The notes under the pieces are model-generated. The model saw only the letters and a program-made list of their open reading frames with translations. It did not search any database and was not told where the DNA came from. Position numbers and translations under genes: made by a program. DNA of 20,097 nucleotides from Chrysochromulina parva (Eukaryota; Haptophyta; Prymnesiales; Chrysochromulinaceae): positions 1 to 20,097 of the forward strand of contig PJAB01000829.1 of assembly GCA_002887195.1 (NCBI GenBank), given 5' to 3'. Shown piece after piece: positions 1,215 to 17,819 of the stretch (position 1 is its first letter; each line of letters begins with the position of its first letter).

Positions 1215-1699
1215 CACTTTTTTGAACGAAACTTTTTGATGATGAAGTTCTGAAGGAAACTTGGGCGGCCACTCAGACCGCCTCCCGCTCCCAGAGCGCC
1301 TCCCCGCGCACGCCTCCTGCTCAAAGGCGGACGTCGGCGAAATGAAGATGCGCGCTGCAGACGCGCTCTACACACCGGTACAGTACCGGAACTCGTGGCT
1401 GGTTGTGAGATTGGTCTGTGTGCCTTTGTGCGTCCGCGTGTCCCGTGTGTCCCGTGTGTGTCCCGGCTCCCCCCGGTGTCTTTTTACCGGAACTCGTACA
1501 TGTACCCGGGCGGCCGGCGGCCCGGGGGTACCGGGTACGTGTGAGTGCGCGCGCGCCCATGTGTCCCGTGTGAGACCTTTTGTGATAGGAAAAATTCCTA
1601 CCCGGCGACCCGGTGTTTTTAACCGAAACACCAGCATGAAGCGCTCGAGATGGGATCGCTCGGAGGGCGAGCGCCAGCGCGACGACTGACCGGACAGCG
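1215..1699. promoter_or_regulatory. Divergent intergenic region between the secreted-protein and transporter genes, with short repeats
   Basis: This 485-bp gap must hold the 5' regions of two genes transcribed apart. I see no TATA box. It carries the 13-mer TACCGGAACTCGT twice (1384-1396 and 1485-1497). The 12-mer GTGTCCCGTGTG occurs three times (1438-1449, 1447-1458, 1561-1572). A near-palindromic GC-rich element lies at 1505-1526. The stretch near 1471-1495 (CCCGGTGTCTTTTTACCG) is echoed near 1609-1628 as CCCGGTGTTTTTAACCG. Small open frames across the region look like chance. A promoter role is inferred from position only. Confidence 0.45.
1505..1526. repeat. GC-rich imperfect palindrome
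   Basis: Arms CCCGGGC and GCCCGGG flank an 8-nt centre, and the 22-bp element equals its reverse complement except at one mismatched pair (positions 8 and 15). It lies in the divergent intergenic region, so it could be a binding site or a 5' UTR hairpin. Its role is unknown. Confidence 0.5.
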
Positions 1700-3175
1700 A
1701 TGATCAACGTCGCTCCGGAGCCGCTGCTGACACCCCCGGCCACGCTGCCCACCGAGCTCAAGCCGGCCGCACCGCCATCATTCATCGTGCGGCTGTGTCC
1801 TGCGTTCAGCAGAGGCAGCGTGTGGGGAACGGTGATCAATATGTGCGCGGCCATCATGGGTGCGGGATGCCTATCGCTCCCGTCCGCTATGGCCGCGCTC
1901 GGCGTGGTGCCATTCGGCGTGCTCATCCTCTTCACCGCCGTCGCGACGCACTTCTCGATTGTGCTGCTGATCGCAGCGATCGACGCCACAGGGAGCCATT
2001 CGTTTGAGGACATGACCAGACTCGTCATCGGCACTTGGACGGGGCATGCCGTCGAGCTCGCGATCATCATCTTCCAGTACGGCACGCTCGTCGCCTATAC
2101 CATCGCCGTAGGCGACGTGCTCAGCCCGGTCCTGAGCATCGACGCAGTCAAAAACGCGATGCCCTGGCTGACGCGTGACCTAGTGCAGATCATCTTTTGG
2201 GCATGCCTGATGCTGCCGCTCTCGTTCGTCGAGAACATCTCATCGCTGCAGATTACGTCGCTCATCGGCCAGGCCAGCCTCGCCTACCTCGTCATCGCCG
2301 TCACCACCCACTCCCTCATCGACACCGCCGCTGCCCCCCAGTCCACCTACGGCTCCGTGGCGCTGATCAGCAGAGATCTCGGCCCGGCCGCCTCGGCATC
2401 GGCGGTGATCTTGTTCGCGTTCACATGCCAGGTGAACATCCCGTCGCTCTACGACGAGCTGCAGACGCGCACGCCGGAGACGATGAGCGCCGTATCAGTG
2501 CGAGCGTGCTTCCTCGCACTCACGTTCTACGTGCTCATTGGGATGTCGGGCTACGCCAACTTCCCGCACACGACGCAGGGCAACATCCTGAACAACTACT
2601 GCCTCCTCGATCCGGGCAAGAGCGCGCTCTCGGCTGACCCGCCGAACGTCATCCTTCCCGCCTTTGGGTGCCTCGCGCTCACCGTGCTGATGGCGTACCC
2701 AATCAACGTCTTCCCCACACGCACCGCCATCGAGATGATGTGTTATCCGAAGGCGTGGGTGCTCGATACGGCGCGGGATGCTCAGGGCGGCGGCCACGAG
2801 AGCAGCGAGCGTGGCACGGAGCGCGGCGCGGGCATGAGCGGATGGGCCAAGTTGCGCCACGTTCTCCTCACCCTCGCCATCGCCGTCTCTACGCTGCTCA
2901 CGGCGCTGGCGCTGCCCGACATCAACACCGTCTTCGCGCTCATGGGCGGTATCTGCTCCCCGTTCATTTGTTTCCTCATCCCGAGCGCGATCGCGTGGCG
3001 GCTCGCCGACCGCTTGGCGCTCAACCGCAGCTTCATCGGCAGGCTCGCTGTCATTGGGCTCGGTGCGTTTGGCACGGTCATCGGGGTCCTCTCGACGGCG
3101 ACCACCGTGATCGGCATGCTCCAGCCAACGAGCAACATGACGTACGATCCATGTAACCCGCCGCGGCCGCTCTGA
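1700..3175 (+). CDS. Amino-acid transporter, AAAP/SLC38-AVT family
   Basis: This 491-residue multi-pass membrane protein is the usual length for amino acid/auxin permease family (SLC36/SLC38/AVT) proteins, which move neutral amino acids across plasma or vacuolar membranes, often with H+ or Na+. The family signature in TM1 is clear: INMCAAIMGAGCLSLPSAM at residues 46-64, the unwound helix that contacts substrate. About 11 hydrophobic segments follow, near residues 46-66, 69-93, 113-137, 155-175, 183-205, 227-247, 262-284, 316-337, 387-408, 409-432 and 447-470. The stretch FAFTCQVNIPSLYDEL (TM6 and following loop) is typical of SLC38-like members. A charged Gly/Ser/Glu loop lies near 357-380. 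The N-terminal 40 residues are Pro-rich and probably cytosolic. The first ATG of the frame is used. There is no intron. Substrate and membrane cannot be told from sequence. Confidence 0.9.
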   Translation: MINVAPEPLLTPPATLPTELKPAAPPSFIVRLCPAFSRGSVWGTVINMCAAIMGAGCLSLPSAMAALGVVPFGVLILFTAVATHFSIVLLIAAIDATGSHSFEDMTRLVIGTWTGHAVELAIIIFQYGTLVAYTIAVGDVLSPVLSIDAVKNAMPWLTRDLVQIIFWACLMLPLSFVENISSLQITSLIGQASLAYLVIAVTTHSLIDTAAAPQSTYGSVALISRDLGPAASASAVILFAFTCQVNIPSLYDELQTRTPETMSAVSVRACFLALTFYVLIGMSGYANFPHTTQGNILNNYCLLDPGKSALSADPPNVILPAFGCLALTVLMAYPINVFPTRTAIEMMCYPKAWVLDTARDAQGGGHESSERGTERGAGMSGWAKLRHVLLTLAIAVSTLLTALALPDINTVFALMGGICSPFICFLIPSAIAWRLADRLALNRSFIGRLAVIGLGAFGTVIGVLSTATTVIGMLQPTSNMTYDPCNPPRPL

Positions 3176-3585
3176 ACGCGGGCGACGGCAGTCACATGAC
3201 GACGCACGTGGCGTGGTCGGTCCCGTCTCGATACCATACACGGCAGCCTTTTTGCACCTACGGCATTTGAGCTTTCTGTACCATTTTGTCCATTTGATTC
3301 ACCCTCGTTCCTAGCGTCCCTGTGTGTATGAAATTCGGGCGTAAACTCGCGCTGTCAGACAAAAGACGTGTCCAAAGTCTTCGCCTTGCCGTGACCCGGT
3401 ATAGAAGGGTTAGGGTGGGGATTATTATCTGGATTTGCACGCAACCCTCACCCCCCGATTTCGACTGAGAGTGTTGGCCGTGTTGGTCGCTTACAGAGGT
3501 GCGGTACTTGACTTGTCTACAGAGAGCTCGAGCGCCGCGGCTTGATTGCGGTGATTGCGGGTGTGCCGTGCTCGTGGTGATTGCA
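3176..3585. other. Intergenic region between transporter and helicase genes
   Basis: This 410-bp gap between two same-strand genes must hold the transporter 3' UTR and the helicase promoter and 5' UTR. It is less GC-rich than the flanking genes, with T-rich patches near 3245-3300. I see no RNA gene, TATA box or convincing repeat. The helicase frame is open from 3499, so its last part could be coding if an upstream start is used. Confidence 0.5.
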
Positions 3586-4743
3586 ATGGCGACGCGCCTC
3601 CTCGCCGTCCTCACTCTTGCCCTGTCACGACCGCTCCTCCACCGGCCGTCCCAGCTCTTATACACCTCTTGCATCCGCGCTGCACCCATCATGAGCGCGC
3701 ACCATCCGCTGCTGCCCAAGAGTCTATCCTCGGCCCTGGATGTCAACGGCATCGAACTCAATTCTCTGCAGCGCGCTGCTCTGGACGCGGCGCTACGCGG
3801 CTTGGACGCAATCATTCACGCTGAGACGGGCTCGGGCAAGACGCTCTGCTTCGCGCTTCCCATGCTCGCTCGGCTCTCCACTGCTGCCGCCGATGGTCTA
3901 CAAGGCATTGTCTTGGTGCCAACGCTCGAGCTGGCCGCGCAAGTGGCGCGCGTTCTGAATACTCTGCAGGCAGGCAGCGCAATCGCACTGACCCCAGGAG
4001 TGGAACAGCTTCCTGACAGCGCTCCTGTACTCGTCGGTCCGCCGGCGATGATGCTTCGGCTCCTGAGCGGCGGCGAGCGCGGCGTGGATGGCGCGCCGAG
4101 GCTTCCGAAAGCGTCGGTACGTGCGATGCGCACGGTGGTGCTGGACGAGGCGGATGCGCTGATGATGCCACTTGGCCGGTACGCCACAGCGGTCGACAAG
4201 GAGCGGCGCGAGGCGAAGCCCAAGGAGGCGGCCATCTTGCTAGAGCAGCTGTGCGCCCTCTGTGGGGAGAAGCTGCAGGTCATGGCGGCGTCAGCGACGG
4301 TGGGGCGGCCGCTGCGACGGATGCTCGCCACGACGTGTGGCGGGCGCACCTTTGAGGTCATTCGTGACAGCGGCGCCGACGCTGCCGAGGCGTCCGAAAC
4401 CAGCGCGGAGGCCCTGACAATTGGCGCCGCCGACGATGAGAGCGACAGCCGGGGTGTGGTCGGCCGACGGCCAATCGGGTTGCCGTCGTGCGTGAGCGTG
4501 ACTGTGGTGACGAGCGAAGAGGACAACGTGCTCGCGGCGGTGCACGACGTGATCCGCGCCGAGGGCGCTGCCGCCCCTCTGCTCTTCATCCCTCCAGGAC
4601 GGAGCCTACCCACAGAGCTTCAGCTCCTGCGCCAGTGCTCTCTCGACGCAGTCGCCCTGGATGCGGCCGTTCTCGATTCGAGCGCACCGCTGGCCGCGCA
4701 TGGTGTGGCGGGGCGGTCCGCTGCGGCATCCCTCATCGGTGGA

Positions 4744-4780
<37 letters not shown>

Positions 4781-5316
4781 CGAGTGTCGTCGTGGGCGCC
4801 AGCAAGGGGCCGAGGGTGTTCGTTGCCTCGCCAAGCGGAGCACGGGGTCTGGACCTGCCTGGGATTGACCTTGTCATCATCCTCGGGATCCCTCCGAGTG
4901 CCGACGCCCTGGTTCACATGGCAGGGCGCACGGGGCGGCAGGGTCAGCCAGGCCGAGTCGCCATCCTTTCAACCGCCAAGGAAGCTGACAAGAAGCTCGC
5001 ACTGATGAGTTCACAGCTCGCTCGTGAGCTCGGCGCTGAGCGGCGCCACGTGGCAGTGCGCGAGGAGGTGTGGGCAGAGATGTGGCGAGTGCACGGGAAG
5101 CGATACGAGCGCAATGAGGACGCGACGCCTTTCTACGCCAACCGGCCTCGCGGGCGCCCTCGTGGGCGCTCCGCTGCCGGGCGGACGAGCGGCCGAAGCA
5201 AAAGCGGCCGCGGCGAGAGCTCAACCCGAAAGCCGAAGGTGGGTCGGGGACGTGCTTCCCCATCTGTGCCGGGGGCGAGCCGTGCGGATGGCAGCAAGGA
5301 GAGCGGTGGGCCCTGA
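3586..5316 (+). CDS. DEAD-box ATP-dependent RNA helicase, possibly organelle-targeted
   Basis: ATP-dependent RNA unwinding enzyme. From ATG 3586 it has 576 residues. The motifs are in order: Q motif SLQRAAL near 63; Walker A AETGSGKT near 79; motif Ia PTLELAAQ near 111; DEAD in VLDEADALM near 187; SAT near 236; motif V ARGLDLPGIDLVI near 422; motif VI HMAGRTGRQGQPG near 444. Between the recA lobes is an acidic, low-conservation spacer (about 260-310), then 11 Ser encoded by pure AGC repeats. The C-terminus (about 520-576) is a basic RGRPRGRS-like tail that probably binds RNA. I chose 3586 because MATRLLAVLTLALSRPLLHR looks like a signal or transit peptide. Alternatives are 3499 (29 residues longer) and 3691 (MSAHHPLLPK, which would remove the targeting sequence). 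A mitochondrial or plastid rRNA role is possible but is inference. Confidence 0.88.
4747..4779 (+). repeat. (AGC)11 trinucleotide repeat encoding poly-Ser
   Basis: Eleven uninterrupted AGC codons inside the helicase gene encode 11 serines after three glycines, in the second recA lobe between motifs IV and V. Pure codon repetition suggests a slippage-prone microsatellite that could vary in length between strains. Confidence 0.95.
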
Positions 5317-5910: not shown

Positions 5911-6768
5911 TTACCGGGCGGCGTCGGCTGTGCGCCAGAAGCACTGGACGTGGTGCAGCTCCGGATCGCCCATGCTCATCTTCGGGTTCGCGTACCACAC
6001 AAACTCACCGCCGCCGCGCTCGTCTACCTCGCGCGCAATCTCGGCGGTGATGCGCTCGTCTGGCCACTCCGCCACAGGTGACGCCATCCACAGGACCCAA
6101 TGCAGCGTTCCGTCGGGCACCTGATATGGGAATGGGTTGACCGCGAACACGGTGCGCCCTGGGCTCGGCCGCTCGGCGGTGCGCTTGCCTGCGATGCGCG
6201 TCGTGCGCATGCCAAAGATCTGGTGGAAGACCCACGCGGCGGGCGTCACCCACATCGTCTCCATGTTGGCGATGAGCAACTCCTTCTGCGCGCGCACCGC
6301 AGGCGTGGGCCGCACCTGCTCAGCGCCCGGCACCCAGCGGTACACCTCGTGCAGCATCTGCATCATCTGAACGTCCGAATCAACCTTGCAGCGCAGTACG
6401 TGGGACGACATGCCAGCTGCCGGCGTCGTCGGATGTGCAGCATTGTAGGTGTTCAGCATTCTATGTTCTGCAGTGGGTGGAACGGCGTAGGTTAGGGCGG
6501 CTGGATCAGGCCGAGTAGACGGAGCAGCTGGAGGCTTGCCGTCTGGCTCGACGCTAGAGTAAACATCCGAGGATCCTGTGCGCGTAAAAGATGGCTGCCT
6601 TTGGTTGCCTGCTGCTTGTGCGAAAGAGTCTTCCGACAAGGGTGCAGACGCCGGACGAATGCGAGAAGTCAGATTGCGAGATGACGGCCGGCCGCAGCGC
6701 ACCTTGTGCAGCAGCATGTTGCTCGATGGGAGCGACACATGGCACAGCTCGCAGGTGAGCAAGTCCAT
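5911..6768 (-). CDS. C2HC zinc-finger-like / DUF3605 domain protein
   Basis: From ATG 6768 the product has 285 residues. It opens with MDLLTCELCHVSLP and continues to LLHKVRC, a C-x2-C-x12-H-x4-C zinc knuckle like those of TRAF-type or XAF1 fingers. A low-complexity Ser/Pro spacer follows (about 30-110). The C-terminal 170 residues resemble DUF3605, a eukaryotic family of unknown function common in fungi. Key landmarks are NPFPYQVPDG then HWVLW, and near the end VWYANPKMSMGDPELHHVQ, matching the family pattern of a WPY-like block, a HxxxW block and an NPxSL...HxHV block. A start at 6906 would add 46 residues, with ATG only 52 bp from the next gene. I prefer 6768 because the finger then sits at the N-terminus. 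It is divergent from the SHOCT-like gene. Its function is unknown. Confidence 0.75.
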   Translation of the reverse strand: MDLLTCELCHVSLPSSNMLLHKVRCGRPSSRNLTSRIRPASAPLSEDSFAQAAGNQRQPSFTRTGSSDVYSSVEPDGKPPAAPSTRPDPAALTYAVPPTAEHRMLNTYNAAHPTTPAAGMSSHVLRCKVDSDVQMMQMLHEVYRWVPGAEQVRPTPAVRAQKELLIANMETMWVTPAAWVFHQIFGMRTTRIAGKRTAERPSPGRTVFAVNPFPYQVPDGTLHWVLWMASPVAEWPDERITAEIAREVDERGGGEFVWYANPKMSMGDPELHHVQCFWRTADAAR

Positions 6769-6958
6769 TCCCGTCCGGCTCTCTCTTGCGCCGCCGCAGG
6801 CTCTGCGATGCGCCGCAAAAGGAGTCGCTGTGTGGCTAAAGGCGAGGCAGGCCTCGACCGAAGGTGTGAACCCCTGTCGGCAGGATCGAGCGTTTGTTTG
6901 GTTCACACCACTCGTTCACAGTGGAGTTTTGGGGTTCCAATTGAGACTCCAAGAAAGC
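6769..6958. promoter_or_regulatory. Short divergent region between the DUF3605 and SHOCT-like genes
   Basis: If the two genes start at 6768 and 6959, only 190 bp separate their start codons, so a shared bidirectional promoter is likely. No TATA box is visible. The right edge carries the left arm of an inverted repeat that spans the SHOCT-like start codon. Confidence 0.4.
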
Positions 6959-6977
6959 ATGCCGGCTAGAGTCTCAA
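6941..6977 (+). repeat. 9-bp perfect inverted repeat with the start codon in its loop
   Basis: TTGAGACTC at 6941-6949 is the exact reverse complement of GAGTCTCAA at 6969-6977. The 19-nt loop contains the ATG at 6959-6961. In mRNA this would place the initiation codon in an exposed loop. It could also be a dimeric DNA-binding site or chance. Confidence 0.55.
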
Positions 6978-7705
6978 AGGTTTTTGTAGGCCGGGACTCT
7001 GGCCAGTATGCGAGAGTCATCTTCCCAGTCGTCCCCACCAACGACGCAGCCCACGAGGCGCCATACTACGACAATCCGTTCTGCGTTGCCATGTGGCCGT
7101 TCTGCGAGGCGAGCACGCTCTACGGAAGGCCCGAATGTTGTGGCGGTGTGGAGCCCGAGTTCAAGCCTTTAAGGAACTCAATGATCCACACGCTAGCGCC
7201 GTTTTGCTGCGTGTGCATGCCAGTCAGCTTCGGTGTCTACCATTTCTTTTGGGCCATCTCGTGCTGCTGGTGCGGCTCTGAACTGCCGTGCACGATAAAG
7301 CCAGTCACAGCATTGTTTGCCAAGAACTATCCGAGTTACCTCTGCGACCCTCCGAACGGCGCTAGGAAGGGAAATCGAAATCTCTTTAAGGACCATCTAG
7401 ATGAGAGGCGCGCTAGGCTCACTGTGGCCGAGACGAACCTGGCTGCCGGTGTGATAACACAGGCCGAGTACAACCTGGTTGAAGCCGAAGTCACATTTGG
7501 CAAAGGGAGCACGCAAGCTCGTGCGGCAAAAAGCGCGTTGCAAGTGGAGAACCAAACGAAGGGGATCATCGTGCAGGCAGTAAGTGCACCGATGAACGCC
7601 GAGATGCAGCGCTCTCAGCTTGCCGAATACAAAAAGATGCTTGATGACGGCTTGATCACGCTCGCAGACTTCAACGCAAAGAAGCAAGTGATCCTTTTCG
7701 GCTAA
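6959..7705 (+). CDS. Cys-rich hypothetical protein with C-terminal SHOCT-like helices
   Basis: From ATG 6959 the protein has 248 residues. Residues 1-40 are soluble (MPARVSKVFVGRDSGQ). The middle (about 40-125) is rich in Cys and aromatic residues, with many pairs such as CC, CVC and CCWC around a hydrophobic stretch (SFGVYHFFWAISCCW, near 90-104) that could touch a membrane or bind metal. After about residue 140 it is charged and helical. The last 30 residues, LAEYKKMLDDGLITLADFNAKKQ, match the SHOCT pattern (helix, G-x-I-T-x-x-E/D-F, then K-K). An earlier stretch, TNLAAGVITQAEYNLVEAEV, looks like a second copy. SHOCT-like pieces are common C-terminal attachments thought to aid oligomerisation. 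The frame is open upstream to 6578, but that part overlaps the neighbouring gene on the other strand. Its function is unknown. Confidence 0.68.
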   Translation: MPARVSKVFVGRDSGQYARVIFPVVPTNDAAHEAPYYDNPFCVAMWPFCEASTLYGRPECCGGVEPEFKPLRNSMIHTLAPFCCVCMPVSFGVYHFFWAISCCWCGSELPCTIKPVTALFAKNYPSYLCDPPNGARKGNRNLFKDHLDERRARLTVAETNLAAGVITQAEYNLVEAEVTFGKGSTQARAAKSALQVENQTKGIIVQAVSAPMNAEMQRSQLAEYKKMLDDGLITLADFNAKKQVILFG

Positions 7706-8114: not shown

Positions 8115-11100
8115 TCAGCGCATGCCGCCGTACGCCTGCTCCGCCGACGATGCGGTCGCTCCTGGAGCGGGCGCGCTGGGCACCACCACCGGCACCAGCG
8201 CAGGGATCAAAAGCTGGGTCGGTCCGACTGAGAGAACCTGCGCCGTCGCCACACGTGCCGCCGCCGTGGCGGTGGGTTGAGGCATCTGGGGGGCTAGCAC
8301 TCGCATAGCGTCAGCGTGCTGCTGCTGCTGCTGCTGCTGATGATGGTGGTGGTGGTGCTGCTGCAACAGCTGCTGCTGCTGGAGCTGCTGGTGCTGGAGC
8401 AGCTGCTGGTGCTGGAGCATCTGCAACTGCTGCAGCTGCAGTTGTTGCTGCAGTTGCTGCTGCTGATGCTGTTGCTGCAGTTGCTGCTGATGCTGTTGCT
8501 GCAGTTGCTGCTGATGCTGTTGCTGCAGTTGCTGCTGCTGCAGCGCGCCCGCGTGCGACACGGCAGCATTCGCGGCAGCGGAGGCGTTCTTGATCGCGGC
8601 GGCCGCGCTCGCAGCCGCGCCCACCGCGGCGCCCGACATGGATGGAGCCCCGGTAGAGACGGTGGCCCCAAACGAGGGTAGGCCGGCGCCGCCGAGGCCG
8701 GAGGGGGGAAGCACAAGCCCGAGAGGCGACTGCTGGTTGGCGGCCGTGCCGACGGGAGGACCGCTCGCTGCAGCGACCGCCGCTCGTTCGAGCCTAATGT
8801 CGAGACGCCACTCCTCCTTGGCGAGGTCGAGCCGCTCGACGGCGCCATCGTCCAGATAGCGCACCTCGTGCTGCCCCGTCGCATGGCTGTACCCGGTGAC
8901 CATCGCCACGTACCATTCCTCGTCCAGCGGAAAAAACAGCTCGATCCGCCGGCCCACGAGCGCTGCACCTGACGACGGCAGCGGAGCCGAGTTCGAGCGG
9001 AACAGCATCGGCTGCAATGGAGACGCATGCGCCGCCGCCACCGCAGCACCCGCTCGCACCGCGGCCGAAGCTGCCATCGCCGCGGACGCGCCTCCCATCA
9101 GTGGCGCCATCGGCGGCAGCGGCCCCGACGGGTACGCCGACGGGTGCGCCGACGGGTGACCCCGGGCGGCGGCGGCGGCGGCTGCCGCTGCGGCTGCCGC
9201 TGCCGCCGCGGCCGCGGCCGCCGCATTGTAATGTTGCGCGTGGGTGGGCTGATGCATGGTGCCCGGTGCGGTTGGCGGTCCGAGCACCATCCTCGACGTC
9301 GTCGTAGGAGGCCCTCCTCCGCTGTGCGTACGTACCGGCCCTCCCGTCGGTCCCAGGGGCGCGTGGGAGCCTCCTAGCAGTCCTGGGAGCAACAGTGGCT
9401 GACCCATCGCTGTGGCAGCATTCTGAACCCTGCCGCCGCCGCCATTGCTACCGGCAGGTAGCGAGGACGGCGGGTAGCCACTGATACTCGCCGCATGCGC
9501 GGCTTGCGCCGGCGCGGCGCCCTGCGCCTGCGCGGCGGCTTGCGCCTGCGCGGCGGCTTGCGCCTGCGCGGCGAGCAGTTGGGCAGTCGCGGCCGAGTGC
9601 TGCTGCGCCGCCCGCTGCGCCGCCGCCGTCTTGTCGGCGATCTGCTGCGCGAAGGCGACGTAGGCGGGATCCTGGGTCACCGCCTGGTAGGCCTGCAGGA
9701 GCTGGCGCAGGTGCGTCCACAGCTCGCTCTCCTCGGGCAGCTCGTCACGCGGGTAGTAGCGAGCTACGATCGACCCCATTTCATAAGGGGCGCCATGCCC
9801 TTTGGGAGCGCGAAGGTCGATACGGCCCAGCAGGTCGAAGCCGGAGGTGCGTGCGCGGTCGCCGAGCGCGCGCCGGCAGCGATCCCGCACAAAGGAAGCG
9901 ATGTTGCCGATGTGCACGTTGGCGGCCGCGGGGCCCACGGCAGCGCGCAGCTTGTTCGTGCCTTGTGCGAGGCACAGGTAGACCCCCGCGACGTCCGCCT
10001 GGAGGAGGTACTGCACGTACAGACCGGAGGAGGTGGTCTGCGCTGGATCGCAGATCGAAACCCACGGCACGCGAGCCCACTTACCGATGCCCATGGACGA
10101 GCGCACGGCGAGCTTATGGCCGAGTGCCAGCTGCAGGGAGCGCTCAATGCCGGAAAGGGTGTGGACCCACCGGTGTGTGGGCGAATGCACCTCTGTCTCG
10201 GACGCGTGGTTGTACTCTGAGAGCAAGCTGTGGAAGCCCTGCTGGAGAGAAACGGGCGGCACGGGCGGCGCGGACGTCGAGACGCCGTTCGCGCCGCCCA
10301 AGCCCGGGACGACGCCGACACTCAGCGTGAGGCTCACATGCACGCCCGTAACGCCCTCGAGGGAGAGCCCTGCATAGACGTACGCAGGCGGCGACGAGGC
10401 GGTGGATGTGGGCGACTTGGGGGCGGCCGTGCCGCCCTTGGCTTTCTTGGGCACCCCCGCACCAGCCGCCGCCGGCGCGCCGTCCGCGCCGTCCGCGCCC
10501 GAGGCGGCGCGATTCACGAGCGGTCGCTTGCGGCTTTGGATGGCGGCCACCTTCTCCTCGCGCTTGGCAAGGCTCTCGAGCTTCTTGAAGATTGCATCCA
10601 TGCACTTGGTCACCTCCTCCTTGATCTTCTTGTTCTCGCGCTCCTCCTTTTCCCGCGCGAGCGTCTCCTGCCGCTTCTCGCGCTTTTCGCGCTCAGCCTC
10701 CTCCTTGGCCTCCTTGGCCTTCGCGCGCTCCTGCGCACGCTCCTCCGCCTTCGCCTCCTGTTCGAGCCGCTTCGCCTCGAGCTTCGCCTCGCGCTCCTTG
10801 ACGCGCTCGGCTTCGCGCGCCGCGCGCTGCTCCATGGTGAGAACGGGAGCTCGATGGCGCAACCCATCGCCATGCTGGCGCGGCATCAGGGGGTCTTGAG
10901 GCGCCGTTGCGAGCGCTAGGGCCGTCATCCGCTCCTTATCGATGCCGGGCGGGTAGAGCGTCATCACGAACGCCTCATCCTCCTTGGTGCACAGCACACG
11001 CCGGGCCGGTTTGGGCGCCTTGACGGGCTTTTGCTCTCCCTCTCCTTCTCCCTCTCCCTCTCCCTCGCCCTCCTCGTCCTCGTCCTCGTCCTCGTCCGGC

Positions 11101-14100
11101 TCGGGCAGAGCATTTGGGTTTGAGGGCGGCACGGGCAGCGCGTAGATCAAATGCTTCACGCGCGCGGCGATCGAGCGAAGGTCGACGTGCGCTACCCAAA
11201 CCGGCCCATTGGGCTTCACTTCCTTGCCCTCCTCCTTGCCCTCCTCCTTGCCCTCCTGCCTGCCCTCGTCCTTGGCCTCATCTCTGGCCTCGTCTCTGGC
11301 CTCGTCGCCTTCGTCGACGCCCTCGTCGGCCTTTGCAGGAGGGGGGGTGGTGCTGCCCTCTAGGTGCTGTGCCGCCTCGCCCTCGGTCTTCACCTTGGAC
11401 TCTTCGCCCTCGTCATCCTGCTTGACATTGGCGCCACCACCGCCATGACCCTCCTCGTCGCCCTCGTCTTCCTCCTTTTTCACTCCCTTGGCCTCCTTCT
11501 TGCCTCCCTCCTCGCCATCCTTGAAAGGCTTCGGTTTGATCAGCTTGAGTGCGCGCAAGCGCACGAGCTCGGGGTCATCGAAATACGCCTCGAACGAGCC
11601 AAAGCCGTGCTTATACACGCCCAGCAGCAGCTCGCGGTCCTCGAGATACGTCCACTCGAGCTCAGGCGCCCTCGGGGGCGGGGGCGGCCGGGGTGGTGGC
11701 CGTGGCGGTGGCGGCGCAGATTTTCGAGTCACAACGGTGCCCAAGGCGGCTCTTTTTAACGGCTTCAGCGCCGCCGCCGCACCGTTTGCACCCACCGACG
11801 TCGTGCCGCTCTCGCCGGCGCCGACGCCCTCGCCTTTGGCCATCTCTTCATCCTCGGCCGCAGCTGGCAGTGGGCTATTCACGCCATCGGCGGCGGCTTC
11901 GCCCTCCTTCGCATGGCAATCTTCGGCTGCCACCGCAGACGCCGCCGCCGCGGTCGCCGACACGGCTGCTTTCGGTTTCCCCCGCGATTTCCTCTCCTTG
12001 GGCTCCTTGGGCGGTTTTGGCTCCTTAAGGGGTTTTGGCTCCTTAAGCGGTTTCGGCTCCTTGGGCGGTTTCGGCTCCTTGGGCAGTTTCGGCTCCTTCG
12101 GGGGTTTTGGCTCCTTCGGGGCCTTTGGCTCTTTGGGCGGCTTTGGCTCTTTTGGCGCAATGCACTTGCGGTTGGCGCAGCGCGAGCGGCGCAGCCCAGG
12201 CCCGCCAAATTTGGGCATGTCACGGCAGCAAAGGCAGTCGCCGCAGTCGGGGCGCGTGCAGCCGACGCAAGTGCACGGTCCCTTTTTGGTGCGTTGCGCA
12301 GCGCTAGGCGATCCGTTGCTCGAAGTCGCGCCGCCAGTTTCGACGGCGGCCTTGTACATTTCGTCCACAAGTGAGCTGGCGCACGCGCTGATTGGTATGC
12401 ACACGCCCTCCATACTACCAGAGGGGCCTGCACCAGAGGCCGCCGCCCTCTCCTCCTCCGCCGCTGCCGCCTCCTCCTCCGCCTCTTCTGCCGCATCCTC
12501 TCCTGCCTCCTCCGCTGCCTCCGCCTCCTCCTCCTCAGCTGCCTCCGCCGTCTCCGCTGCCGCCTCCGCCGCCGCCAGCGCTGCCTCCGCCGCCTCCTCC
12601 GCCGCCTCCTCTGCCTCCTCCTCCGCCGCCTCTGCCGCCTCCGCCGCCGCCTCCGCTGCAGCCTCCTCCTGCCTTTCACCATCAGCCGGCGGCGGCGAGT
12701 TCGTCGTCACCATGGGCTCAGCCTCCTCCTTCACCTCCGCTGCTAGCTCCGCTTCCTCCATGGCCTCTGGTGCCTCCGCGCCCATTGCTGCGTCGGCTTC
12801 GTCCACATCCATCGCGTCCTCCGCAAGCCCGCCATCCTTCGACAACGGCGATTCGCCCGCTTCCTTGCCCTCCAGAGCCGACGCTCCCTCTGCGCGCGCA
12901 TCCGAGGGGTCGTATGGCGCCGTGTCGAGCGGCACCATCAGCCGCGGCTGCCAGAACTCGGGAGGCTTGTAGAAGACCGAGTCGGGCGGGATATCCTCCC
13001 ACTTCATCCGATGGAGCAGGGCGGGCTTACCCAGGCGCGACGGCAGCTTGGGTGCCTCGAACTCCGCGAAGCTTGCCGCGGCCTCGACGGCTTGCCGTAG
13101 ACGGCGCAGGTCGAGTAGACACGTGATCATCTGGGCTGCCTTGCCCTCGACCCGTTGCGAGAACCACTGCGCCAGCGCCATCGGCAGCGGCTTGATCGTC
13201 GGCGCATCGGTCAGCGGCTGGCCGGGCATGGGCGGGCGTCCCTCCTGCAGGTAGTGCCACAGCCTCGCCTCATACTCGTGAAAGCGGTCGGGCTCCTCGT
13301 CCATAGACGCATCGTCGTCGCCGTCCTCGGCCGCGGGCGTAGCTGCCGCCCCGTCGTTCTCGCGATCGGCCGCATCGTCAACAATGTACTCGTCGTTTAT
13401 GGCGCCAGCCGCCGACCCGGGCCGACTCCGGATCGCCCCCGCCCCCTCGGCTCCCTCGGCCGGCATGCTCTGTGCGCTCGCAGCAGCAGCGGCGGCGGCC
13501 GTGTCCAAAGCCGCAGCGCCTTCCCCACCCTCTGCCGCCGCGGCGCCCGCTTCGGTGGTTCCGGCGTCGGCGCCGGTTTCGGGGCCGGTTTCGGCGCCGG
13601 CCGCGCCCCCGGCTGCGCCCCCCTCTGCAGGCGCGCGCAGGGCCCTCTTCGCCTTCGCCTTGGCGTCTGCTTCTGCCTGGGCGGCAAAGCGCAAGAGAGC
13701 CATCGAGAGCGAGCACGTGTAGTCGATGAGCTCGTGCACCATCTCGAGCGACCGTTGGGCGAGCGACGGGTAGCGCGCCTTGATGAGCGGCGTGCGGTGG
13801 TACCCGAGGCTAAAGATCCCCGCCAGCGTCGCATGTAGCTGTGCCTTGGTCCACGTGATCTGCTGGAACTCATCGCCCTCCTCCTCTTCCTCCTTCTCCT
13901 TCTTCTCCTTCTTTTCCTTCTTCTCCTTCTTCTCCTTCTCCTCCTTCTTCTCCTTCTTCTCGGGCTTGACGCCCAGGTCGAGCAGCGAGTTCGCCAGACG
14001 GTCGGGCGCCTGAGAGTTGCGCTGCGAGAAACGGCTCATGCCGCCGCTCATGGTCTCCCGGATGCCGAAGCCGTCCTCCTCGCCCTCGTCCTCGGCCTCA

Positions 14101-17100
14101 GCCTCGGCGCCGAGCATCTTCTCCCAAAAGTCGGGATCGTGCAAGTCCATTGCCTCGCCCTCGTCATCCGCCCTGAACGACGCCTGCGAGAAGACGCCGC
14201 CGCTCTGGCCCTTCTCCGCCTCGTTTGCGGTCTTGGTCGTGGCGCAGCGCTGTAGGATCTGCTCGATCGACTCGGCGCTGAAGCGCGCGATCTCATCGTC
14301 GTGCTCCTGCGTAAAGAGCTTTTGGGCGCCGTGTTTGAGCAGCTCCTCTACCTCGGCAGCCTTGAACGGCATGCCTTTTTTGCGCCCGCCACCCAGGGTG
14401 AGCGCGTCGTCGCCGGCGGCGTCTTCGCCCTTCTCGATATTGTGGTACGAGCCGTGTCCGATGACCGCGTGCTCGAGGCCGAGCTTCTGGTTGGCCGCAT
14501 CGAGGAGGTGCATCTCGTACGTATCTCGCGTCACCAGCCGGTAGATGCGCACGAGCTTGGTCTGGCCGATGCGATGGCAGCGCGCCTGGGCCTGCAGATC
14601 GTTCTGCGGGTTCCAGTCGGGATCGTAGATGATGACCGTGTCGGCGGCCGTCAGGTTGATGCCCACGCCGCCCGCGCGCGTGCCCAGCAGGAAGAGAAAG
14701 GTATCCGAGTCCGGCGCGCAGTAGCGGTCGATGGCAGCCTGCCGCTTGTCGCCAGTCACCGACCCGTCCAGGCGCTCGTAGCTGAAGCCTCGCAGCTCGA
14801 CGTACTCCTCGATCAGGTCGAGGAGCATCGTGAACTGCGAGAAGAGGAGCACACGGTGCCCCTGCTCGCGCAGGTGCGGCAGGAGCTTGTCGAGCAGCAG
14901 CATCTTGCCCGAGGCGGCGATCAGGTTGTCGAGCCACGTGGCGTTATCGGCGCCCTCGAGCCCCTCCGCCTCGACCACACCCTTGATGAGGAACGGGTGG
15001 TTGCAGCAGTGGCGCAGCTGCATCGACACGTTGTTGAACGACGGGCCGGCGCCCGAGGCTTCCGAGCCACGCAGGAGCACGGAGCGGTTCCGCTCGAGGA
15101 TCGCGCGGTAGCAGCGCTTTTGGAAGTTGGTGATCTCGACGCGGATGAGGGTCTCTTCCATCGGAGTGAGCCCGAGGTCGACATCCGCCTTGGTACGGCG
15201 CAGCAGGTACGGCCGAAGCACCTCGGTGAGCCCCTGCACCTGCGCCGCACTCTGCATGTCGCCGTACTGATCGAGAAAGTCGTCGAGCTCCTCGAAGGTG
15301 TCGGGCTCGAGGAAGTTGAGCATCGACCAGAGTTCAGCCACGTGATTTTGGAGCGGCGTGCCCGTGAGCGCGAGCTTCACGGGGCAGTCGAGCTCACGCA
15401 GCGCGAGCAGTGCCTTCGCATCGCGGTTCTTGAGACGGTGCGCCTCGTCGACGATCATGTACTCCCAGCGCACAGGCTTGAGCACCTCGAGGTTCGCCGT
15501 GAGCATCTCATAGGTCGTGACACACACGTCGAACTTGGGCAGCTGCTTCGGCGTCGGACGACGGCCGCCGCGCCCGCCGCCGCCGCCGCCGCGCCCGCCG
15601 CCTTCGACGCCCGAGGGCGGGAAGCCCCACTCGTACTGCACCAGGACGGCGCGCGCGTCCTTGTTGCCGTAGAAGACGACGGTGTCGAGCGAGGTCCACT
15701 CGGCAAGTTCGCGTGTCCAATGCGGCAGCGTGGAAAGAGGCACGACCACGAGTACGGGCCCTTGGGCATTGTGCAGCATGCGCACGCACTGCAGCATGCA
15801 CACGGCCTGTGCCGTCTTCCCGAGGCCCATCTCGTCGCCCAGGATGACGCTCCGCCCCTGCGCGTAGTTGTGGCGCAACCAGCGTAGACCGTCGAGCTGG
15901 TACGAACGGAGGGAGCGCTCGCCTTGAAGCACGCCTTCGGGCAGCTCGCTCACCGCCATGGTGCTACTGCCGCCTCCGCCGCCGTCGGAGGCGCCGAGCT
16001 TCCGCTTGCCGGCGGCCTTGGTGCTGGGAGCCGCGCCGGCCTCGGCTGCCTTGGCCAGCTCGATGCAGCGCGTGCGGAAGGCCACCTGGCGCTGGTGGAA
16101 GGCGGCCACCGCGGTGGCTGGCACGTCTTCCTCATCCTCCCAGGTACACATATCGTAAGTCAGGCTGAGCCACTTGATGAAGTAACGACGCCGCCGCCCG
16201 CCGCCGCCGCCACCGCCGCCGCCGCCGCCCGCCGCCGCGCTAGTGCTGTGCTCGGCATCGCCGCTCGGCCCGCCGCCATCGCCGCCGCTGCTTGCCTCCG
16301 TCCCGAGCCCGCCCTCTGCCAGCGCGTCCGAGGCGTCGATCGCGCCAGGGAAGGCGCCGTCCGGCCCACCCTTGCGCTTAGCACCGGCTCCGCCATCGAC
16401 GGCGAGCACGCGCTCGACGGTCAGGCACTGCTCGTTGAACCGGTCGAGCTCGCCTGCGAGCTTCTTCTTCTCATAGTTGCCCAGCCGCTGTGCTGAAAGG
16501 CGTCCGTCGGCGACGATCTCGTCAGCAGAGAGCCAGCGAGCATGGATGTGCGCACGCCCCTTGAACTTGCACAGGTACTCGAGCTCGTCCGACTCGCTCT
16601 GCAGGCTGCCGAGGCGCTTGCGAACGCTCGCCGGCGACGCCGAGGCCTTGTCCGCCGCCGGCAGCGCCACCCCAGCATGCGAGGCGCCACCGGGTCCACC
16701 ACCGGGTCCGCCACTAGATGCGCCCGTGGCGCGCGGCCGGTCGTCGAGAATCTTGTCGATCGAATTGTCTTCCTCGAGCCTGGCGAGGGCACGCCGCCGC
16801 GAAGAGCACGAAGGGCAGTACCTGCGCACGGCGACACGCACGACGATCAGCGCGGGGCAGGGGCTACACATGAGGTGAGGGAGCGCATCGGCCGTGCGGC
16901 TGCGCCGTCGACTGCCGACGTGTGGGGCGACGTGTGGGGCGACGTGAAGGGCGGATGGGCGTGGCACGCACCAGTCACCCTTGGGCACCGCGAGCAACTT
17001 TGGGCGCAGGCAGTGCAGGTGGTACGCCGAGCCGCAATCGTCGCCGTCGCACAAGAGCAGCTCATTGCCCGGGTACGAGTGCGACTCCTGGCACTTGACA

Positions 17101-17573
17101 CACAGGTCGTGGGGCGGCTCCTCCGGGGGCACGTCGCCATTGGCCCCCAGGGCGGCAGCGGCCGCCTCCTCCTCGGTGCGGCGCACCACCGCCGGCTTGC
17201 GCTTGCCGGAGGACCTCTTCTTCTTGGGAGGGGGGGGCTGATCGGCAAGCGAGGCCGCCAGGGCAGCATCAGCCTCCACCTGCTTCATGATGGCCGCCTT
17301 GCCCGCCTCGGCGGCCGCCTCGGCCGGCGCTGACGACCCAGCCCGTGCGCGCTTCGCCGCCCCGCGCGTGGCCAGCTCCAGCTCCTGATCCTGATCCTCA
17401 GAGTCCATGTCGCTCTCGGCATCGCCGTCGTCCTCCTTGATCACTCTCGGGTTCTTCTTGGGGAAGGAGGCCGCGAGGTGCCCGTCGCCGTCGTCCTCGT
17501 CCTCCGGCTCCCAGCTGTCCATGGAAGCCCACAGGACTGGGGGGAGAAGGGGGGCGCAAGGACCAGATGCCAC
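8115..17573 (-). CDS. CHD-type chromatin remodeler with PHD, chromo, SNF2, CXXC, SANT/SLIDE, McrB-N (DUF3578) and Tudor-like domains
   Basis: ATP-driven nucleosome remodeler, nuclear by inference. Numbering is for the unspliced 3152-residue frame. PHD finger about 156-253 (CVKC, CDGDDC, then CPSC), broken by a 150-bp intron. Chromodomain 1 about 268-380 and chromodomain 2 about 383-490 (YFIKW, CTWEDEED), both with low-complexity insertions. SNF2 ATPase about 555-1010: GDEMGLGKT near 578, VDEAHRLKN near 707, LTGTPLQN, GTRAGGVGINL, CHRIGQT. Lys/Glu and Ala/Glu-rich linker to about 1760. CXXC finger about 1763-1803 with DMPKFGG. KEPKPP repeats to about 1858. SANT-like LLLGVYKHGFGSFEAY near 1975, then SLIDE-like pieces to about 2200. 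Coiled coil about 2247-2348. McrB-N-like domain about 2447-2630. Poly-Ala 2782-2804. Tudor-like domain about 2871-2920. Gln/His tail about 3010-3085. Met18 (17522, MDSWEPEDEDD) is an equally likely start. The CHD assignment is firm, the tail domains slightly less so. Confidence 0.93.
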   Translation of the reverse strand: MASGPCAPLLPPVLWASMDSWEPEDEDDGDGHLAASFPKKNPRVIKEDDGDAESDMDSEDQDQELELATRGAAKRARAGSSAPAEAAAEAGKAAIMKQVEADAALAASLADQPPPPKKKRSSGKRKPAVVRRTEEEAAAAALGANGDVPPEEPPHDLCVKCQESHSYPGNELLLCDGDDCGSAYHLHCLRPKLLAVPKGDWCVPRPSALHVAPHVAPHVGSRRRSRTADALPHLMCSPCPALIVVRVAVRRYCPSCSSRRRALARLEEDNSIDKILDDRPRATGASSGGPGGGPGGASHAGVALPAADKASASPASVRKRLGSLQSESDELEYLCKFKGRAHIHARWLSADEIVADGRLSAQRLGNYEKKKLAGELDRFNEQCLTVERVLAVDGGAGAKRKGGPDGAFPGAIDASDALAEGGLGTEASSGGDGGGPSGDAEHSTSAAAGGGGGGGGGGGRRRRYFIKWLSLTYDMCTWEDEEDVPATAVAAFHQRQVAFRTRCIELAKAAEAGAAPSTKAAGKRKLGASDGGGGGSSTMAVSELPEGVLQGERSLRSYQLDGLRWLRHNYAQGRSVILGDEMGLGKTAQAVCMLQCVRMLHNAQGPVLVVVPLSTLPHWTRELAEWTSLDTVVFYGNKDARAVLVQYEWGFPPSGVEGGGRGGGGGGRGGRRPTPKQLPKFDVCVTTYEMLTANLEVLKPVRWEYMIVDEAHRLKNRDAKALLALRELDCPVKLALTGTPLQNHVAELWSMLNFLEPDTFEELDDFLDQYGDMQSAAQVQGLTEVLRPYLLRRTKADVDLGLTPMEETLIRVEITNFQKRCYRAILERNRSVLLRGSEASGAGPSFNNVSMQLRHCCNHPFLIKGVVEAEGLEGADNATWLDNLIAASGKMLLLDKLLPHLREQGHRVLLFSQFTMLLDLIEEYVELRGFSYERLDGSVTGDKRQAAIDRYCAPDSDTFLFLLGTRAGGVGINLTAADTVIIYDPDWNPQNDLQAQARCHRIGQTKLVRIYRLVTRDTYEMHLLDAANQKLGLEHAVIGHGSYHNIEKGEDAAGDDALTLGGGRKKGMPFKAAEVEELLKHGAQKLFTQEHDDEIARFSAESIEQILQRCATTKTANEAEKGQSGGVFSQASFRADDEGEAMDLHDPDFWEKMLGAEAEAEDEGEEDGFGIRETMSGGMSRFSQRNSQAPDRLANSLLDLGVKPEKKEKKEEKEKKEKKEKKEKKEKEEEEEGDEFQQITWTKAQLHATLAGIFSLGYHRTPLIKARYPSLAQRSLEMVHELIDYTCSLSMALLRFAAQAEADAKAKAKRALRAPAEGGAAGGAAGAETGPETGADAGTTEAGAAAAEGGEGAAALDTAAAAAAASAQSMPAEGAEGAGAIRSRPGSAAGAINDEYIVDDAADRENDGAAATPAAEDGDDDASMDEEPDRFHEYEARLWHYLQEGRPPMPGQPLTDAPTIKPLPMALAQWFSQRVEGKAAQMITCLLDLRRLRQAVEAAASFAEFEAPKLPSRLGKPALLHRMKWEDIPPDSVFYKPPEFWQPRLMVPLDTAPYDPSDARAEGASALEGKEAGESPLSKDGGLAEDAMDVDEADAAMGAEAPEAMEEAELAAEVKEEAEPMVTTNSPPPADGERQEEAAAEAAAEAAEAAEEEAEEAAEEAAEAALAAAEAAAETAEAAEEEEAEAAEEAGEDAAEEAEEEAAAAEEERAAASGAGPSGSMEGVCIPISACASSLVDEMYKAAVETGGATSSNGSPSAAQRTKKGPCTCVGCTRPDCGDCLCCRDMPKFGGPGLRRSRCANRKCIAPKEPKPPKEPKAPKEPKPPKEPKLPKEPKPPKEPKPLKEPKPLKEPKPPKEPKERKSRGKPKAAVSATAAAASAVAAEDCHAKEGEAAADGVNSPLPAAAEDEEMAKGEGVGAGESGTTSVGANGAAAALKPLKRAALGTVVTRKSAPPPPRPPPRPPPPPRAPELEWTYLEDRELLLGVYKHGFGSFEAYFDDPELVRLRALKLIKPKPFKDGEEGGKKEAKGVKKEEDEGDEEGHGGGGANVKQDDEGEESKVKTEGEAAQHLEGSTTPPPAKADEGVDEGDEARDEARDEAKDEGRQEGKEEGKEEGKEVKPNGPVWVAHVDLRSIAARVKHLIYALPVPPSNPNALPEPDEDEDEDEEGEGEGEGEGEGEQKPVKAPKPARRVLCTKEDEAFVMTLYPPGIDKERMTALALATAPQDPLMPRQHGDGLRHRAPVLTMEQRAAREAERVKEREAKLEAKRLEQEAKAEERAQERAKAKEAKEEAEREKREKRQETLAREKEERENKKIKEEVTKCMDAIFKKLESLAKREEKVAAIQSRKRPLVNRAASGADGADGAPAAAGAGVPKKAKGGTAAPKSPTSTASSPPAYVYAGLSLEGVTGVHVSLTLSVGVVPGLGGANGVSTSAPPVPPVSLQQGFHSLLSEYNHASETEVHSPTHRWVHTLSGIERSLQLALGHKLAVRSSMGIGKWARVPWVSICDPAQTTSSGLYVQYLLQADVAGVYLCLAQGTNKLRAAVGPAAANVHIGNIASFVRDRCRRALGDRARTSGFDLLGRIDLRAPKGHGAPYEMGSIVARYYPRDELPEESELWTHLRQLLQAYQAVTQDPAYVAFAQQIADKTAAAQRAAQQHSAATAQLLAAQAQAAAQAQAAAQAQGAAPAQAAHAASISGYPPSSLPAGSNGGGGRVQNAATAMGQPLLLPGLLGGSHAPLGPTGGPVRTHSGGGPPTTTSRMVLGPPTAPGTMHQPTHAQHYNAAAAAAAAAAAAAAAAAAAARGHPSAHPSAYPSGPLPPMAPLMGGASAAMAASAAVRAGAAVAAAHASPLQPMLFRSNSAPLPSSGAALVGRRIELFFPLDEEWYVAMVTGYSHATGQHEVRYLDDGAVERLDLAKEEWRLDIRLERAAVAAASGPPVGTAANQQSPLGLVLPPSGLGGAGLPSFGATVSTGAPSMSGAAVGAAASAAAAIKNASAAANAAVSHAGALQQQQLQQQHQQQLQQQHQQQLQQQHQQQQLQQQLQLQQLQMLQHQQLLQHQQLQQQQLLQQHHHHHHQQQQQQQHADAMRVLAPQMPQPTATAAARVATAQVLSVGPTQLLIPALVPVVVPSAPAPGATASSAEQAYGGMR
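8316..8541 (-). repeat. CAG/CTG-rich repeat encoding the poly-Gln/His tail
   Basis: Forward-strand CTG/TTG codons read on the minus strand as long Gln runs broken by Leu and His. The centre has about three copies of a 24-bp unit (QQHQQQLQ, near 8460-8530) and a run of six His. Such tails are common in transcription cofactors and prone to length change. Confidence 0.92.
9163..9228 (-). repeat. GCN repeat encoding poly-Ala (about 22 residues)
   Basis: Mixed alanine codons give about 22 consecutive Ala at residues 2782-2804 of the remodeler, in the low-complexity linker between the McrB-N-like and Tudor-like domains. Confidence 0.9.
11998..12162 (-). repeat. 18-bp tandem repeat encoding KEPKPP units next to the CXXC finger
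   Basis: About nine 18-bp units (forward form GGCTCCTTGGGCGGTTTC and variants) encode KEPKPP, KEPKAP, KEPKLP and KEPKPL directly after the CXXC domain. The basic, Pro-rich array could extend DNA contacts like an AT-hook flank. This is inference. Confidence 0.9.
12432..12672 (-). repeat. Ala/Glu-rich low-complexity coding tract
   Basis: Forward GCC/CTCC triplets encode long EEAAEAAEA stretches around residues 1634-1713, forming a probably disordered or helical acidic linker before the CXXC finger. The opposite strand has a matching open frame, which I treat as a shadow. Confidence 0.85.
13880..13967 (-). repeat. Lys/Glu tract (KEKKEKKEKK)
   Basis: CTC/CTTCTT repeats on the plus strand encode alternating Lys and Glu at about residues 1202-1231 of the remodeler, some 200 residues after the ATPase. 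This is probably a charged single helix or disordered linker. Confidence 0.85.
16822..16971 (-). other. In-frame 150-bp GT-AG intron inside the PHD finger
   Basis: On the minus strand the intron begins GTGCGTGCC at 16971 and ends GTGCGCAG at 16822. Joining TG at its left to GTACTGCCC at its right restores GDWYCPSC, the end of a normal C4HC3 PHD finger. The unspliced reading instead puts 50 unrelated residues (His/Val/Pro/Arg-rich) between GDW and YCPSC. The length is a multiple of three with no stop, so retention keeps the frame. Phase 2. It is the only intron I can support in this 9.5-kb gene. Confidence 0.85.
16914..16949. repeat. Short tandem repeat inside the PHD intron
   Basis: Three near copies of a 12-bp unit, GACGTGTGGGGC on the plus strand, the last one diverged (GACGTGAAGGGC). 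They encode HVAP repeats if read through. The repeat is absent from any PHD finger and supports the intron call. Confidence 0.75.
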
Positions 17574-17819
17574 GCGGCAAAGAGTTCCGTACAGGGTCGC
17601 CCAAGATGCCGATCGCAGAAAAAAACTTCACATCTCGCGCGTCATCGAACATACGGCGCGTTTCAAATACTTCGAGCGTCTTGGCGGGCGGCGCTGCGAC
17701 GTGGATACATGTACGTTCCCGATAGACTTCACGGCTCTGAAGCGCTGCTCGTGCGGTTGCTTTTGTCCGTCGAAGGTTTGGGATATTGGGTACGTTTCAT
17801 TACACAAGTTTCACGGGAT
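17574..17819. promoter_or_regulatory. Shared divergent region of the CHD and PP2C genes
   Basis: Only 246 bp separate the first possible CHD start (17573) from the PP2C start (17820), or 297 bp if CHD starts at 17522. No TATA box is seen. The PP2C frame is open upstream to 17478, but that part overlaps CHD coding and is not protein-like. A bidirectional promoter is inferred. Confidence 0.45.

Follow-up and report, generated by a model that had tools for sequence, protein, structure and literature searches.

A bacterial defence part as a possible guide of chromatin remodeling in an alga

Can the cytosine reader of a bacterial restriction enzyme find a place in a eukaryotic nucleosome motor, and what would it read there? 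This question is raised by a stretch of 20,097 nucleotides from the haptophyte alga Chrysochromulina parva (contig PJAB01000829.1, called the window here), in which a domain of the MrcB_N family (DUF3578/ADAM, PF12102) is found within the open frame of a CHD-type chromatin remodeler. The explanation considered here to be fairly probable is an ancient capture of the modified-cytosine reader of Type IV restriction by a CHD remodeler, which would use it in the sensing of modified cytosine, perhaps in linker DNA.

Parts of the CHD-type reading frame

The open-frame listing contains a stop-free CHD-type remodeler frame of 3,170 codons (3170 aa) at positions 8115..17627 of the minus strand, to which all features of the frame given below belong. 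The first in-frame methionine is residue 36. No stop is present in the frame of the ATPase and MrcB_N, and each of the five other frames has 20 to 70 of them. The first recognizable part is a PHD finger (residues 176-220, 16968..17102; PF00628 23.9 bits, just under the cut-off of 24), the last cysteine pair of which (YCPSC) lies 3' of a putative in-frame GT-AG intron of 150 nt, stop-free and seemingly located inside the finger (16822..16971). After its removal the finger reads GDWYCPSC. This intron, a probable one, is far from the MrcB_N domain; in this genome, introns can be concealed within frames that show no stop.

Two chromodomains follow. The second (residues 480-513, 16089..16190) is matched by PF00385 with 39.1 bits and by the PDB sequence search, and the first (residues 345-389, 16461..16595) was added by the PDB search, in which CHD1 tandem-chromodomain chains were reached with an E-value of 1.8e-6; with this addition the chromodomains are tandem and CHD1-like. 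They lie N-terminal to the SNF2 ATPase, the arrangement by which CHD proteins are recognized. Lobe 1 of the motor (residues 576-879, 14991..15902; PF00176 244.2 bits) has the GDEMGLGKT and DEAH boxes, and lobe 2 is a Helicase_C domain (residues 908-1021, 14565..14906; PF00271 80.9 bits). In a comparison with PDB sequences, the two best sequences for the ATPase were CHD4 (3.3e-138) and CHD1 (9.9e-125).

A CXXC zinc finger is found at residues 1781-1822 (12162..12287; PF02008 29.3 bits, cut-off 26.5). It keeps KFGGPG, and its closest solved relatives in the PDB sequence search are KDM2B, KDM2A and FBXL19. Genome-wide, 34 CXXC matches were noted, many of them spanning only about half of the profile, and these fingers are expanded in the alga. 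A CHD1-type HTH segment (residues 1990-2021, 11565..11660) gives 24.8 bits with HTH_CHD1_Hrp3 (PF23588), under the cut-off of 27; the matching segment of the related proteins P0002, P0009 and P0010 is above it. Inspection revealed a charged helical, coiled-coil-like stretch (residues 2264-2364, 10536..10838), and blastp a segment GVHVSLTLSV...SEYN...THRW (10167..10346) which enters MrcB_N and overlaps its start; blastp pieces span this whole segment in P0003, P0005, P0007, P0008, P0010 and P0013. C-terminal of MrcB_N, a Tudor/Agenet-like segment GRRIELFFPLDEEWY...VRYLDDG (residues 2887-2943, 8799..8969) was recognized by inspection, Pfam giving no match for it; a Pfam Agenet domain is located C-terminal of MrcB_N in P0002 and P0007-P0010. 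AAA_5, the AAA+ GTPase of the McrB kind, does not figure in the list of 11 families that Pfam gives for the protein of 3170 aa. The neighbours in the window are encoded on the strand opposite to the CHD gene, namely an amino-acid transporter (1640-3172, plus strand), a DEAD-box helicase (3469-5313, plus), a SHOCT-domain protein (6563-7702, plus) and a PP2C phosphatase (17334-19643, plus).

Identity and origin of the MrcB_N domain

The original prediction placed an McrB-type reader domain in this frame, and it was correct in doing so. The Pfam profile search finds MrcB_N at residues 2468-2650 (9678..10226), and the match to PF12102 reaches 109.5 bits (cut-off 25, E 1.9e-31) and spans positions 2-181 of the 183 in the profile, by which the objection that no HMM match exists is excluded. 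The interval 9680-10235 proposed at that time was right as well, and only the residue numbers 2447-2630 were about 20 lower than a count from the first codon of the frame. The motifs GIGKWARVPWVSICDP, TTSSGLYVQYLL, GVYLCLAQGTNKL, IDLRAPKG and GSIVARYYPRDELPEE are all present in the frame 17627-8115 of the minus strand. A second profile was made of 36 prokaryotic MrcB_N domains and zero eukaryotic ones. With this profile the window domain obtained 135.9 bits, the 12 remaining eukaryotic domains between 110.6 and 152.1 and E. coli McrB 34.5; the best of 1000 shuffles (596 listed) had 4.9 bits and the reversed domain -2.4, and the window protein deprived of MrcB_N was not listed. At the level of sequence, these profiles demonstrate full-length homology of the window domain to MrcB_N/DUF3578.

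Membership rests on the family, of which E. coli McrB is by sequence a distant member: it is the family profiles that match, and the window domain taken alone reaches the E. coli structure 3ssc in a single-sequence search only at E 0.26. The N-domain of E. coli McrB itself has 31.8 bits within PF12102 (cut-off 25). When a profile of the 34-row alignment was compared with the PDB, the first seven matches were McrB chains (3ssc E 1.9e-5). Profile comparison with E. coli McrB-N gave a probability of 40.7% over 48 columns when four eukaryotic rows were used, and with 34 rows the probability was 95.2% over 54 columns. Alignment A4 was composed without L037, L047, L054, L059, L060 and L061, and without the paralog from contig C704.

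A scan of genomes of prokaryotic species yielded 37 relatives from nine phyla according to the tree labels, 23-42% identical over the best matched segment (37 loci). Ten of the 37 were scanned with Pfam: an AAA-type match stands beside MrcB_N in 9 of the 10 (AAA_5 in 8, above cut-off in 6), EVE is present in 3, all of them also AAA-type, and HNH in 1, and no chromatin domain was found in these ten. An origin among restriction proteins, as had been supposed, is in agreement with this picture, the relatives of the domain being McrB-type and other restriction-type prokaryotic proteins. In a tree of 48 domains, from which P0005 and P0006 (97-99% like P0002) and L061 (64 residues) were omitted, the 11 eukaryotic rows form a single clade (100/99) beside prokaryotic DUF3578/McrB proteins, with a stem of 1.74 changes per column and a sister that the tree does not resolve. 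The branch of E. coli McrB is very long, and L043, a long row as well, is possibly drawn falsely near the eukaryotic clade according to a warning of the program. Three eukaryotic subgroups can be distinguished, i.e. the window domain with P0003 and P0004, the Agenet type, and P0012 with P0013. Judging from this topology, one capture followed by duplication would fit best; the donor cannot be named from this sample, for its members were chosen by their similarity to an alignment with eukaryotic rows in it.

A viral origin was considered and rejected. The scan of viral contigs with the window domain gave 0 relatives among 5 stretches, and the scan with a mixed alignment 2 among 22, with no giant-virus source. 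An integrase-like gene was seen by inspection near both matches, so they look like prophages. In one IMG/VR contig (L069, 1724-4151) a prokaryotic DUF3578 gene adjoins a gene resembling a C5-cytosine methyltransferase, with an integrase-like gene nearby on inspection. Phage records contained 2 Listeria phage matches of 30% identity, and neither the window domain nor the paralog was matched in PADLOC.

The base pocket and the marks it may read

Alignment with E. coli McrB places the pocket residues of the window domain at W2522 (10062-10064), Y2537 (10017-10019) and L2541 (10005-10007), hence W49, Y64 and L68 of the E. coli numbering are retained; W49 is one of the residues of the flipped-base pocket. 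In E. coli McrB this pocket also includes Y64 and L68 and accommodates C, 5mC, 5hmC and 4mC, and replacement of the wedge residue Tyr41 by Ala or Gln weakened binding (PMC3874153). W49 is kept in 13/13 eukaryotic and 36/36 prokaryotic domains, Y64 in 12/13 and 36/36, and L68 in 13/13 and 33/36, where the 13 eukaryotic rows include the near-copies P0005 and P0006 (97-99% like P0002), L061 (64 residues) is left out and the near-copies L036 and L037 are both kept. Overall, 36-52% of the residues of the eukaryotic copies match the window row. The wedge position (I2514, 10086-10088, aligned with Tyr41) is Ile in the window only and Cys in the other 12 of the 13 eukaryotic copies; in the prokaryotic relatives it is Tyr in 0/36 and Gln in 22/36, thus the wedge tyrosine is not a family-wide feature. 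The kept pocket favours binding of modified cytosine by the window domain, as far as an alignment can indicate, and the loss of Tyr41 would leave the exact mode of binding undecided.

Possible writers and readers of such a mark are encoded in the genome, which has 6 DNA_methylase, 2 SRA and 4 MBD matches; the frames of 5, 2 and 2 of these, respectively, were sent to Pfam, and all were confirmed. Two of the methyltransferases were compared with PDB chains. The closest PDB chains of the methyltransferase L008 are HhaI and HaeIII, and L009 has PHD-type fingers joined to a divergent methyltransferase with a weak HhaI-like match in the PDB. GFCCKPFS replaces the expected catalytic motif in L009, and L010 has GFCCKPFS too. 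Neither DNMT1 nor DNMT5 was identified in the genome. A single RFD match (L070, 1102-3219) was rejected as a DNMT1 candidate, the protein having HMG-box-like and DDT-like stretches on inspection and no methyltransferase. There was no TET/JBP match in the genome and none in the control genomes either, so absence is not implied. The observed/expected ratio of CpG in the window is 1.13, i.e. there is no depletion, and heavy, mutable CpG methylation is accordingly not evident. A published survey reports a correlation between DNMT5 and heavily methylated linkers for Micromonas, Aureococcus and Emiliania (PMC9998398).

The course of events that we regard as fairly probable would be as follows. MrcB_N would have been taken up by a CHD remodeler from a prokaryotic McrB-type Type IV restriction protein, once and long ago. 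The motor, with the PHD finger and the chromodomains, would handle the nucleosome, and MrcB_N would still bind DNA with modified cytosine, most likely 5mC, flipping the base out, and would anchor or gate the remodeler at modified DNA, probably the linker; the outcome of the reading could be recruitment or a gating of sliding. The CHD1-type C-terminal region normally grips linker DNA, and the linker is suggested here by the position of MrcB_N, which follows the CHD1-type HTH segment in the protein. Unmethylated CpG would be reported by the CXXC finger, and with MrcB_N reporting modified cytosine a two-way methylation sensor is proposed.

It has to be weighed against this that the captured domain may have lost its preference for modified bases and may simply bind DNA or nucleosomes, raising the affinity for linker DNA. 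The wedge residue, which is now Ile or Cys, the long stem branch of the eukaryotic clade (1.74 changes per column) and the undepleted CpG of the window are consistent with such a loss, nevertheless it is considered unlikely, since W49, Y64 and L68 are nearly invariant in the 13 eukaryotic copies in spite of the low overall match (36-52%), and the wedge position is variable in the prokaryotic family as well. Rather improbable, too, is the reading of another mark (5hmC, N4-methylcytosine or a viral hypermodified base) by a remodeler that takes part in the silencing of invading DNA. The known work of CHD proteins is on host chromatin, which speaks against this role, as do the scans of viral contigs with no link to giant viruses and the lack of a TET/JBP match, the latter with the reservation about the control genomes given above. 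What can be said for it is that the pocket of E. coli McrB admits C, 5mC, 5hmC and 4mC (PMC3874153), that the scanned prokaryotic relatives have restriction-type partners (AAA-type in 9/10, EVE in 3, HNH in 1) and that at least one methyltransferase of the genome, L008, is HhaI-like.

The fusion and its relation to known systems

The genome searched comprises 45 Mb in 2199 contigs, and counts of MrcB_N in it are lower bounds. At least 2 matches are present, namely the window and contig C704 (locus L003, 1-4987), which carries a second CHD-type gene truncated by the contig end. The contig starts within an SNF2 gene (QARCHRIGQ). A gap of about 130 bases, taken for an intron, separates the SNF2 end from the MrcB_N frame, whose 1287 codons encode HTH_CHD1 (at 29.8 bits over the cut-off), CXXC, MrcB_N and Agenet. 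P0005, 99% identical to the product of this gene, represents 68 member sequences in the protein database. The SNF2 segment used as a query gave 12 listed matches in the genome against two MrcB_N loci, so that, by both searches, other remodelers are devoid of MrcB_N. The genome also has 58 light-harvesting matches, some of them perhaps exons of one gene, which mark it as that of an alga. When three of these LHC segments were compared with PDB chains, the best single-length chains for one came from Emiliania (9uen, 9jj8), and Isochrysis 8z11 ranked fourth; for the second, other chains surpassed those of haptophytes, and for the third a strict limit was passed by chains of 9vfj only. In all three comparisons the top scores belong to 9vfj chains.

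The same fusion had been suggested as something to be looked for elsewhere, and it recurs in the paralog and in the database proteins P0008 and P0010. Of the protein searches, the one for long homologs with the window domain found 0 relatives among 2723 candidates and the others 2 and 9, and the fused homologs came from the query with the paralog. The protein relatives are called eukaryotic on the basis of their kinship to the window and of chromatin domains where these are present. P0008 (1823 aa) and P0010 (1585 aa) are predicted proteins, each of which unites SNF2, Helicase_C, Agenet and MrcB_N in one chain. Compared by blastp with the window protein, they align in colinear pieces, with 50.6% and 54.9% in the ATPase; the pieces after the ATPase cover window residues 1455/1454-1537, 1992-2029 and 2218/2123 through MrcB_N to about 2670. 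P0003 aligns with residues 2214 to 2665. P0012 and P0013 have MrcB_N and no ATPase match in Pfam, hence another type of eukaryotic protein may make use of MrcB_N as well. Their layout is a helical stretch, MrcB_N and a C-terminal segment which is AP2-like by eye.

That the fusion is an artefact of the gene model, of assembly or of contamination, with MrcB_N belonging to a bacterial or a separate gene, is regarded as very improbable. The probable intron in the frame, whereby stop-free need not mean exonic throughout, and the distance of about 130 bases between the SNF2 end and the MrcB_N frame in C704 are in its favour. However, MrcB_N is located in the middle of the frame with chromatin-type domains N-terminal to it, its GC3 of 0.825 is like that of the remainder (0.69-0.90 in other segments of the frame), and a second genome locus together with two colinear fused database proteins makes an accident of the gene model unlikely. 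The colinear homologs likewise make separate transcripts for the ATPase and MrcB_N unlikely. It is scarcely credible that MrcB_N recruits protein partners or binds modified RNA, for although EVE, another family of restriction base readers, has eukaryotic members reading modified DNA or RNA (PMC11090510), duplex DNA is the ligand of the MrcB_N member that has been characterised (PMC3874153), and the domain is housed here in a nucleosome motor that has further DNA-reader domains.

The putative captured reader can be set beside several known systems. The N-domain of E. coli McrB (3ssc), from the Type IV enzyme McrBC, belongs to the same Pfam family and has S38, G40, G42, P48, W49, Y64 and L68 in common with the window domain, however it is only about 15% identical, the window domain is devoid of the wedge Tyr41, and the reader is joined in E. 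coli to an AAA+ GTPase and in the alga to an SNF2 remodeler. Prokaryotic DUF3578 proteins with AAA_5, EVE or HNH (L030, L031, L036) are the closest sequence relatives found; they differ in their restriction-type partners and in the wedge, which is mostly Gln. CHD1 and CHD4 of animals and fungi share with the window protein the PHD finger, tandem chromodomains and SNF2 ATPase and possibly, by a match under the cut-off, the CHD1-type HTH segment, whereas the C-terminal MrcB_N and the Tudor-like segment are extras of the window protein. We know of no CHD1/CHD4 remodeler of animals or fungi with MrcB_N or CXXC. The eukaryotic 5mC readers known to us are MBD, SRA and certain zinc fingers. SRA proteins (UHRF1, SUVH) and MBD2/3 in NuRD couple the reading of 5mC to chromatin factors; in contrast to them, the window protein has the reader and the remodeling ATPase on one polypeptide. 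SRA also flips the base and its fold differs from that of MrcB_N (PMC3874153). A restriction part repurposed for a cellular task is also exemplified by PcdA of Staphylococcus aureus, a protein of a phage-restriction system reused in cell division (PMC10602043); that case is bacterial and concerns cell division, with no chromatin. Among the best-ranked open-access papers listed, judged at the level of titles and abstract openings, none concerns a eukaryotic MrcB_N/DUF3578 protein, and an earlier notice in algal gene sets is possible; a census of McrBC systems excluded eukaryotic sequences (PMC11090510).

It may be suggested, only as a possibility, that chromatin remodeling in the alga is guided by a component of bacterial defence. 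The further conjecture is that a nucleosome motor with a built-in base-flipping methylcytosine reader from Type IV restriction, adjacent to its linker-binding end and combined with a CXXC finger for unmethylated CpG, measures linker methylation and couples nucleosome spacing to the methylated linkers known from some algae; it is a tentative one, and we consider it rather doubtful. If the capture is true, it would add a further kind of 5mC reader, which originated in an anti-phage enzyme of bacteria and became joined to the remodeling motor itself, and would clearly exemplify the turning of defence parts into epigenetic ones. The coupling of nucleosome position with linker methylation in algae would then become testable.
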